A stretch of 47,682 bases of DNA from assembly GCF_017308075.1 (NCBI RefSeq), contig NZ_JAFKFX010000052.1:1-47682 (forward strand), in the 5' to 3' direction. The notes under the pieces were generated by a model. That model was not told where the DNA came from and searched no databases. It saw nothing but the letters and a program-made list of their open reading frames with translations. This document shows, one piece after another, positions 12,500 through 26,856 of this stretch. The stretch's first letter is position 1, and every line of letters begins with the position of its first letter. The stretch comes from Allobosea sp. (GTDB lineage: Bacteria; Pseudomonadota; Alphaproteobacteria; Rhizobiales; Beijerinckiaceae). A program made the position numbers and the translations under genes.

Positions 12500-12640
12500 A
12501 GGGCCCGGGTGCTCCGCCGCGCTGGTGCGGCGGGCAGGTTTTTTGCGCTGGTCGGGCCGCCAGTGCGAGGAGACCTGCATCGATGATCCCGGCCACCCGG
12601 GCGCGCCTCCTGCGTGCGCGCCGCGCTTTTGTCTGCTGTT
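12500..12640 (+). ncRNA. Structured leader RNA upstream of nhaA, candidate nhaA-I riboswitch
   Basis: An outer 9-bp helix pairs GCCCGGGTG (12503-12511) with CACCCGGGC (12594-12602). Inside it lie a hairpin CCGCCGC...GCGGCGG (about 12514-12532), a helix GCAGGT (12534-12539) with ACCTGC (12573-12578), and an inner helix GCGCTGG (12545-12551) with CCAGTGC (12559-12565). The 3' side is followed by a GCGCGC-loop-GCGCGC hairpin and a short T run (about 12601-12640), a possible expression platform. The position just before nhaA and the nested architecture match my memory of the nhaA-I motif, reported as a lithium-sensing riboswitch class. The structure is directly seen; the class name is inference. 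It fills most of the 420-base space between carB and nhaA. Confidence 0.6.
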
Positions 12641-25550: not shown

Positions 25551-26354
25551 CTAGGCTGGCTGCATCGCTTCGTCCTTCGCGACCTCGAGCGCCTGCCGGG
25601 GGGCGTCGTCGAGGTGCAGCCGCATCTCCTCGGCGAGCGCGAAGAAGCGGTCGCGGACGGCGCGCGCATGCGGGTTGCCGCGTTCGATCGCGAGGAAGAC
25701 GTTCGGCGCATCGTAGCGGACCATCTCGGTCGCCTGCATCAGCAGGTCGAAGCTCGCCGTCGTCATCCGGCGCGGCAAGGGCTCCATCTGCACCAGGATC
25801 TTGGCGATCAGATGCGTCAGCCCCTGGGCGAGCGCGACCTCGCGGTCAAGGGCGTCGGGCGTGGTCATGATCACGTCGAGGCCGAGCACCCGGCGCAGGA
25901 AGGCGGCGATCCTGCCGGCGCTGCGGCCGCGGATCGGGCAGATCGCGATCTTCAGGCCGCGGATGCCCTTGCGCGCGCTCTGCGGCCCGAACAGGGGATG
26001 GGTTCCGACGATCTCGACATGATCGGGCAGGCCGGCCTGCATTGCGAGGGCGGGAGCGATCTTGACCGAGCCGACATCGAGCACGATCGCGCCGGCCCGC
26101 AGATGCGGCGCGAGAACGGCCAGTGCCGAGGGAACTGCGCCGACCGGGACGGCGAGGATGACGAGGTCGCAGGCGCCGATCTCGGCGATGTCGCCTGGAA
26201 CCAGGCCCTTTCCCGAGTCGTCGAATTGGGCGGGCTGATCGGGATCGAAGACGCGCAGCCGGAAATGCGGCTGGAGATGGTGCGCCATCAGCCGGCCGAA
26301 GGCGCCGAAGCCGATGATGCCGATCGAGGTGACGGTCTTGCGGGGGGTATGCAT
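25551..26354 (-). CDS. Prephenate/arogenate dehydrogenase family protein (tyrosine synthesis)
   Basis: The 267-residue enzyme belongs to the TyrA family, which oxidises prephenate or arogenate with NAD(P)+ on the way to tyrosine. The Rossmann motif GIIGFGAFGRLMA (12-24) is at the N-terminus, followed by DLVILAVPVGAV, VLDVGSVKIAPA and GTHPLFGPQSARKG, which holds the family's HP motif; the helical C-terminal domain contains LTHLIAKIL. There is no chorismate mutase or ACT domain, so product control may be transcriptional. That fits the leader peptide with two Tyr codons and the hairpin found just upstream. Whether prephenate or arogenate is used cannot be told. Confidence 0.87.
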   Translation of the reverse strand: MHTPRKTVTSIGIIGFGAFGRLMAHHLQPHFRLRVFDPDQPAQFDDSGKGLVPGDIAEIGACDLVILAVPVGAVPSALAVLAPHLRAGAIVLDVGSVKIAPALAMQAGLPDHVEIVGTHPLFGPQSARKGIRGLKIAICPIRGRSAGRIAAFLRRVLGLDVIMTTPDALDREVALAQGLTHLIAKILVQMEPLPRRMTTASFDLLMQATEMVRYDAPNVFLAIERGNPHARAVRDRFFALAEEMRLHLDDAPRQALEVAKDEAMQPA

Positions 26355-26400
26355 CGCGTTTTCCTGAGGGAGGCCGCGATGCCGGGTGACTGCCTGAATT

Positions 26401-26421
26401 CAACCGCCAGCGCGGCGGTTG
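26401..26421 (-). promoter_or_regulatory. Candidate attenuator hairpin of the tyrosine leader
   Basis: On the minus strand CAACCGCC (26421-26414) pairs perfectly with GGCGGTTG (26408-26401) over a 5-base loop. The word GGCGGTGG just after the leader stop codon (26442-26435) can pair instead with the ACCGCC half of the first arm, giving mutually exclusive structures. No U run follows, so the effect may be Rho-dependent or on translation rather than simple intrinsic termination. Confidence 0.5.
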
Positions 26422-26442
26422 AGACATGGGAATGCCACCGCC

Positions 26443-26493
26443 TTATGAGGACGGGGCGTAATAGTTCCGGGCGAGGAGGCAGGAGATGGCCAT
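26443..26493 (-). CDS. Leader peptide with tandem tyrosine codons
   Basis: A 17-codon frame encodes MAISCLLARNYYAPSS and stops with TAA. Tyr codons TAT and TAC (26463-26458) are adjacent, about 15 bases before the first pairing word of the downstream hairpin system, the distance needed for a stalled ribosome to free it. The next gene on the strand is a tyrosine-pathway dehydrogenase. A promoter-like pair (26500-26528) places the predicted transcription start exactly on the A of this ATG, so the peptide would be translated from a leaderless RNA, as described for rhizobial trpL. No Shine-Dalgarno is present, consistent with this. The reading is mine, from sequence alone. Confidence 0.6.
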   Translation of the reverse strand: MAISCLLARNYYAPSS

Positions 26494-26499
26494 GGCGGG

Positions 26500-26528
26500 C
26501 TTAGAGCGCGCCGGCGCAGGCCTGTCAA
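26500..26528 (-). promoter_or_regulatory. Promoter of the leader peptide/prephenate dehydrogenase unit
   Basis: On the minus strand TTGACA (26528-26523) is followed after 17 bases by TCTAAG (26505-26500). The -35 word is the consensus; the -10 is fair. The implied +1 is 26493, the A of the leader ATG. It lies right after the NIPSNAP gene stop (26530), so tyrosine synthesis is separated from carA transcription. Confidence 0.6.
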
Positions 26529-26529
26529 C

Positions 26530-26856
26530 TCAGAGCTGCGGCGAATAGTCGGTCGGCGTCAGCATGCGGTCCTCGATCGCGCCGACGAGGTCGCCATGCT
26601 CGATCGCGCTGACGCGCTTGATCTCGAGCCATTCCGGATCGGCCTTGAAGCTCGCCCAGCGCTCCGCCTTGGTCTGCGCATCGGGCCAGGCGAGGATATA
26701 GGCGAACTCGGTGCGGGTCGCGCTCCTGGTTTCCCAGAGCGACAGGATGCGGAAGCCGTGGCGGGCCATGATGCGCATCGCGTGATCTCGAAAGCGGGCG
26801 TGGAAAGCGGCCTTGTTGCTCTCGAAGATCTCGTAGATGCGCAGCTGGTGGATCAT
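26530..26856 (-). CDS. NIPSNAP family protein
   Basis: The 108-residue protein has the NIPSNAP ferredoxin-like fold pattern: MIHQLRIYEIFESNKAAFHARFRDHAMRIMARHGF, then WETRSATRTEFAYILAWPD and KAERWASFKADPEWLEIK. The family's biochemical role is unclear. GGAGAG precedes the ATG at 26856. It is 14 bases after the carA stop on the same strand and is probably read through from carA. Confidence 0.87.
   Translation of the reverse strand: MIHQLRIYEIFESNKAAFHARFRDHAMRIMARHGFRILSLWETRSATRTEFAYILAWPDAQTKAERWASFKADPEWLEIKRVSAIEHGDLVGAIEDRMLTPTDYSPQL

Follow-up and report, generated by a model that had tools for sequence, protein, structure and literature searches.

The window, as we call the whole stretch of 47,682 nucleotides that was analyzed, carries on its minus strand a gene for a tyrA-like prephenate dehydrogenase of 267 aa [25551..26354]. 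This gene, which is proposed to be the regulated one, starts with the ATG at 26354 and is preceded by a Shine-Dalgarno-like (SD) AGGA at 26362..26365. In Pfam, the protein matches PDH_N and two further NAD-binding models, and among solved structures it best matches those named prephenate dehydrogenase 1 (5t9f, E 1.2e-32). Pfam gave no match to an ACT domain in the 267-aa protein, in keeping with an earlier note on this DNA that had described the gene as TyrA-type without an ACT domain. A second, distant TyrA homologue is present elsewhere in the same genome (C12), and covariance-model scans of that genome did not find the leader element discussed below at this homologue. On the other side of the element, directly upstream of its promoter, lies a NIPSNAP-family ORF (26533-26856, minus strand). 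The sequence 5′ of the promoter varies in several relatives from the same genus; hence, the leader seems to be tied to tyrA and not to the NIPSNAP-family ORF. Elsewhere in the window, Rfam identifies an nhaA-I RNA on the plus strand (12507-12565, 48.7 bits).

Read 5′ to 3′ on the minus strand, the leader element begins with the −35 element TTGACA (26528-26523), followed by 17 bases, the −10 element TCTAAG (26505-26500), six bases, and an ATG (26493-26491). The promoter is sigma-70-like and ends six bases 5′ of this ATG. TTGAC is invariant in the 30 genus rows, and the −10 element is TTTAAG in most of the genus relatives vs TCTAAG in the window (alignment A1). The ATG, at the predicted +1, opens a leader ORF of 16 codons, MAISCLLARNYYAPSS followed by a stop [26443..26493], with two adjacent Tyr codons that represent the proposed stall site [TAT 26463-26461 and TAC 26460-26458]. 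Directly 3′ of the leader stop is GGCGGTGG, and then come TCAACCGCC (26422-26414) and GGCGGTTGA (26408-26400). The leader ATG is situated 139 nt upstream of the tyrA-like start. Promoter, 16-residue peptide with its Tyr pair, and the words after the stop had all been reported in the earlier note, and re-reading on the minus strand confirmed them. Transcription probably starts on the leader ATG itself, resulting in a leaderless leader, since the starts sit 34-39 nt past a −35-like TTGA. This spacing holds for 100 distinct leaders, among which it also served as a selection criterion in the scoring. With no promoter required, TTGA or TTGC was found 32-39 nt ahead of a start for all 88 ORFs of the Y[YFS] type.

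The leader arrangement is real, far above chance, and conserved in many alphaproteobacteria. In the genus of the window (61 genomes searched), 30 of the 30 tyrA-like orthologues among the matches listed have it. Among the genus loci (at least 30), the promoter together with an ATG 35-36 nt past TTGAC is present in 30 of 30, and in these 30 the peptides end in YYAPSS, YYTPSS, YYAPLS, or YYALFS. In addition, a search of named genomes that returned 380 loci gave the leader in 77 of the best 80 (absent in L088, L106, and L129); the 80 include records of Brucella, Methylobacterium, Chelatococcus, Hyphomicrobium, Thalassospira, and Roseococcus, with Bosea as the closest. The Brucella-named species we take to be former Ochrobactrum. 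A family sample of 149 genomes contained 25 carriers, 20 of them with the leader (absent in L146, L147, L148, L150, and L151), and among 397 genomes sampled from the order, all 24 tyrA carriers at E ≤ 1e-60 have it. The genus, named, family, and order sets overlap. When no promoter was required, a Y[YFS] leader ORF was present in 88 of 105 loci; of the remaining 17, nine retain the first Tyr with D, H, P, or R as the second residue, and eight are without a leader. Conservation across these sets of loci excludes chance. The leader ORF, covarying arms, and an ATG at the promoter-defined +1 were thus all found in relatives, which is the check that had been suggested for the element. Shortly upstream of the gene in L106, L129, L146, L147, L148, and L150, loci with no leader, is a small ORF that ends CxxCG...KFxxFPG(V/A)C.

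Covariance models gave the same picture with respect to location: every clear hit lies in front of a tyrA-like gene. The order scan with model R1 (397 genomes) resulted in 16 hits, among which L048, L051, and L052 were false on inspection, and R1 missed 11 of the 24 order carriers that the protein search later turned up. When the class was scanned with model R2 (385 genomes), there were 11 hits, four of them true (L158, L159, L160, and L161); L160 corresponds to the window itself and L158 to the same place as L045. On inspection, L162 and L164-L168 resembled chance or were unclear, and L163 is a different leader and not the tyrosine element. In the genome of the window there is one clear copy; the next hits, at 23 and 17 bits, were unlike the element and were rejected as a second copy. 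As an observation in its own right, L163 (G766:C23:273048-273172, minus strand) has the leader ORF MTGRRHHFGWYFTSLP with Trp-Tyr-Phe codons and a stop behind a −35-like TTGAC, then a hairpin that resembles a terminator and has a U-rich tail, and downstream an ORF of 167 aa that looks acetyltransferase-like by eye. L164 (G958:C1:683710-683809) has a leader-like ORF, MMTRFYNGPLS and a stop, with a CGGCC-type inverted repeat.

Turning to the peptide, the sixth codon counted back from the stop encodes Tyr in 99 of the 100 distinct leaders (L049 is the exception). The first Tyr is encoded by TAT in 99 leaders and by TAC in one. The fifth codon before the stop is Tyr in 91, and otherwise Pro, Ser, His, Asp, or Arg. 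Because some lineages have another residue in place of the second Tyr, the first Tyr is considered to be the key codon. The leaders are 15 to 24 codons long and start with ATG (98 of 100) or GTG (two of 100); the sequence upstream of the Tyr codons is variable, yet the reading frame is open. In the alignment of 41 representatives, the Tyr codon lies outside the proposed helices but is nearly invariant, and pairing therefore does not account for its conservation. A Tyr codon in a leader ORF with a tyrosine-pathway gene downstream is, at the sequence level, what is expected of a ribosome-mediated attenuator. The residues 5′ of Tyr vary between lineages, and conserved upstream nascent-chain residues of the TnaC type were not found. 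Two of the longer leader peptides (22 and 24 aa) were tried against Pfam and NCBIfam and had no match.

The RNA from the Tyr codons to the tyrA-like start can be described as six segments. Segment 0 corresponds to the codons after Tyr, segment 1 extends over and after the stop (26434-26443 in the window), and segments 2 and 3 are the arms TCAACCGC and GCGGTTGA. Segment 4 is a conserved GGCATCGC(A/G)GC or its equivalent, and segment 5 comprises the SD and the start of tyrA. The minimum free energy (MFE) fold of the window RNA has 0:1, 2:3, and 4:5 together (−54 kcal/mol, z −2.6). In this fold, hairpin 0:1 [26434..26457] pairs the post-Tyr codons with the stop region, hairpin 2:3 [26400..26422] pairs TCAACCGCC with GGCGGTTGA, and the putative sequestrator 4:5 [26351..26382] pairs GCATCGCG with CGCGATGC over the tyrA start codon. 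A further helix, referred to as X [26373..26416], emerged from the RNAalifold genus consensus and a duplex test; here GCCGCGCTGGCGG (26416-26404) pairs with CCCGGCATCGCGGC (26386-26373) in region 4. Helix X joins the end of segment 2, the loop, and segment 3 to segment 4 and thereby excludes both 2:3 and 4:5. The Rfam scan of the window detected neither such a family at the gathering score nor a match to the T-box covariance model, and a search with the leader (E up to 10) gave no such family either; the sole match to the leader, to a snoRNA on the opposite strand, is meaningless.

Covariation of the helices was evaluated in alignment A4, which holds 41 representatives below 80% identity; the RNAalifold genus alignment has too little variation to show covariation. 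Using shuffles that ignore the relatedness of the sequences, X has 86.5% of its cells paired and 38 double-change cells vs a shuffled mean of 16.6, and no shuffle out of 500 was as high. The corresponding figures are 92.3% and 17 vs 4.0 for 2:3, and 88.6% and 19 vs 5.4 for 0:1, again with 0 of 500 in each case. All three helices beat all slid registers on compensating double-change cells, and the score of X (0.289) is to be compared with at most 0.131 for its slid registers. Two weaker measures were less discriminating: pairs changed on both sides were reached by 26 (X) and 43 (0:1) of 500 shuffles, and further pair types by 107 and 84, respectively. A helix between segments 1 and 2 is conserved, but no covariation was seen among the 41 representatives, nor any gain over partner swaps (44%), perhaps because both arms have two partners each. 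Mutually exclusive structures, as suggested in the earlier note, have comparative support in that 0:1, 2:3, and X covary and X shares bases with 4:5 and excludes 2:3.

Hairpin 4:5 was assessed by exchanging partners between species. Its own partner beats a swapped one in 79% of 3280 swaps, and z is negative in 39 of the 41 representatives. The SD or the AUG of tyrA is covered by this hairpin in 40 of 41, and in all 41 its 5′ arm overlaps X. Moreover, its register shifts by lineage: in Bosea the start codon is covered (CATCGCG/CGCGATG), and in other lineages the SD, by CTGACCTCG/CGAGGTCAG in L044 and by CCTCT/AGAGG in L091. This change of register, in which either the start codon or the SD remains covered, is what we regard as the strongest indication that the output is translational. 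A U-run after arm 3 is absent in the window and in most of the representatives, with a mean of 1.98 U per 8 nt (n = 41) and four or more U within 8 nt in six of the 41. The earlier note had pointed to the missing U-run and left the mechanism open; the former stands for the window and its clade as a lack of an intrinsic terminator, and the latter can be refined. Because a conserved hairpin covers the SD/start codon of tyrA and there is no U-run, the output is most likely at translation initiation. Collectively, the parts of the system are well supported, i.e., the conservation, the Tyr-stop spacing, helices 0:1, 2:3, and X, the species-matched 4:5 hairpin, and the exclusions among them.

These features lead us to consider it likely that the element is a tyrosine-specific, ribosome-mediated attenuator, most likely acting on translation initiation of the tyrA-like gene. 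The conserved in-frame Tyr codon and the covarying arms in relatives support the earlier proposal of a trp-attenuator-like logic operating with tyrosine. Transcription would begin with the A of the leader ATG, with a ribosome following behind. Counted from the first base of the A-site codon, the leading edge of a ribosome is about 12 nt away, such that a ribosome at the first Tyr would cover segment 0 and free segment 1, and a ribosome that has reached the stop would cover segment 1. Which segment the ribosome covers is set by the Tyr-to-stop distance, and this distance is fixed in 99 of 100 leaders. With enough Tyr-tRNA, the ribosome would reach the stop and cover segment 1, hairpin 2:3 would form, and the free segment 4 would pair with segment 5 and hide the tyrA SD or start codon (OFF). 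When Tyr-tRNA is short, the ribosome would stall on the Tyr six codons before the stop with its leading edge just short of segment 1. Segment 1 would then take segment 2 (1:2) or segment 4 (1:4), and segment 3 plus the loop could pair with segment 4 (helix X). In this scenario, 4:5 would be prevented and tyrA translated (ON). The leaderless start, the stalling, the direction of the switch, and the response to tyrosine are what we infer from the arrangement of these parts.

Folding calculations lend weak support to a stall-dependent switch and are partly at odds with it. At equilibrium, the tyrA start is predicted to open more easily with the ribosome at Tyr than at the stop in 60 of 100 leaders, with a median difference of 0.19 kcal/mol, and for freeing arm 3, equilibrium folding showed no difference (52 of 100, p = 0.33). 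For transcripts that end before the SD, comparing the stalled with the stop position in the 41 representatives, X was higher in eight and lower in 28, and 2:3 was higher in 22 and lower in nine, both contrary to the model. The stalled transcripts adopted the 1:4 pairing instead, which raises the possibility of an alternative ON state based on 1:4. Equilibrium folding was rejected as a proof of the switch, its results being weak, null, or contrary. A cotranscriptional walk, a crude heuristic applied to the 41 representatives, gave 2:3 in 36 at the stop vs 23 stalled, 1:2 in one vs 17, and X in four vs 11. In the same walk, the two states were alike in having a 4:5 hairpin of at least 5 bp in 26 of 41; on stalling, the start region was less paired in 17, more paired in nine, and equal in 15.

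The small differences, at times in the wrong direction, between equilibrium folds at the two ribosome positions would be expected if the hairpins were conserved for another reason, e.g., as a stability or protein-binding element with no tyrosine response, and the Tyr codons were incidental. The near-invariant Tyr codon outside the helices, its fixed distance to the stop, and the tyrosine-pathway gene downstream make this very improbable. That the C-terminal hexapeptide is alike in many leaders (Y-Y-A-P) could point to a TnaC-like sensor in which the nascent YYAPxS stalls the ribosome on free tyrosine or another small molecule. We regard such a sensor as improbable given that changes in the post-Tyr residues preserve RNA pairing (YYALFS in L035, YYGRSS in L046), that several leaders have lost the second Tyr, and that the residues upstream differ among lineages. 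The leader RNA or peptide might also act mainly in trans, like rnTrpL/peTrpL of Sinorhizobium meliloti; the small ORF looks leaderless, it occurs in the same bacterial class, and trans roles have been reported for the trp leader (PMC7298713). In the clear hits that were examined, however, the element precedes the same gene in cis, the peptide is unconserved in its N-terminal half, and the window showed no terminator from which a small RNA could be released; we consider a mainly trans-acting role very improbable.

A transcriptional attenuator of the trp type, with 2:3 as terminator (perhaps Rho-assisted), 1:2 as antiterminator, and 4:5 incidental, would have an identical leader logic. It is also favored by L155, L156, L184, L186, and, weaker, L187, where a GC hairpin and then U-rich sequence occupy the interval between leader and tyrA, and by four of 100 leaders (L089, L097, L100, and L154) with at least five U in the 8 nt past arm 3. 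Against it, no U-run follows 2:3 in the window or in most of the 41 representatives, and the species-matched hairpin over the SD or AUG is retained; for the window, we therefore find this alternative unlikely. In the five distant relatives just mentioned, a Tyr leader lies behind a −35-like element and the terminator-like hairpin replaces 2:3/4:5, as expected of transcription attenuation. This feature raises the possibility, to which we give somewhat less than an even chance, that one ancestral leaderless Tyr-codon sensor has two outputs, sequestering tyrA translationally in the lineage to which the window belongs and causing intrinsic termination in distant relatives. If so, the output module of an attenuator would have been exchanged in evolution while the sensor and the target gene were kept, which would suggest that attenuators are able to swap outputs. 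Under the preferred translational reading, the element would also be compact enough to serve for work on how an RNA of several segments is steered by a stalled ribosome. The alignments yield a model for annotating such leaders.

For several amino acids, control by a leader-peptide attenuator is textbook knowledge. In the enterobacterial trp and phe attenuators, as in that of his, codon-specific stalling on the leader selects between alternative structures, and these leaders have their own ribosome binding site. Another relevant system is the anti-TRAP (rtpA) leader peptide of Bacillus subtilis, which reportedly senses uncharged tRNA and controls translation initiation (work attributed to Chen and Yanofsky, 2003 and 2004). 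It would share the translational leader-ORF logic of the tyrosine leader, and it differs in that rtpA responds to Trp, has a T-box in addition, and belongs to another phylum. T-box RNAs sense uncharged tRNA by direct RNA-tRNA binding and do so without a leader ORF.

Tyrosine genes are regulated by T-boxes in other species, according to a 2005 comparative paper, which names attenuators for histidine, threonine, and phenylalanine (PMC1262725); the element discussed here, by contrast, has no T-box match. For the enterobacterial his attenuator, codon-specific stalling on a leader ORF and two alternative structures are likewise described (PMC3896937). The enterobacterial his, trp, and phe attenuators differ from the tyrosine leader in their terminator output and in the amino acids sensed. 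Closer in phylogeny, leaderless trpL is established in rhizobia, and two reports describe, for S. meliloti rnTrpL/peTrpL and Bradyrhizobium japonicum MSTAVAPARLWWRTS, adjacent regulatory codons and two exclusive structures in alphaproteobacteria, with the short trpL ORF of S. meliloti leaderless at +1 as predicted for the tyrosine leader (PMC7298713, PMC10117765). Rhizobial trpL differs in its Trp codons, its output of transcription termination, and the gene controlled. The closest alphaproteobacterial parallel that we have seen is the uORFC-8-2 motif before cysS in Rhodobacterales, which is predicted to be a ribosome-mediated attenuator and has two regulatory codons in tandem; here the codons are for Cys, the gene is cysS, and the order is another one (PMC8632094). 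The earlier note knew of no described tyrosine attenuator of this kind, and likewise none based on a leader peptide was found in the open-access papers that were searched. A widespread, apparently leaderless tyrosine attenuator that operates at the level of translation would fill the tyrosine gap among the leader-peptide attenuators.
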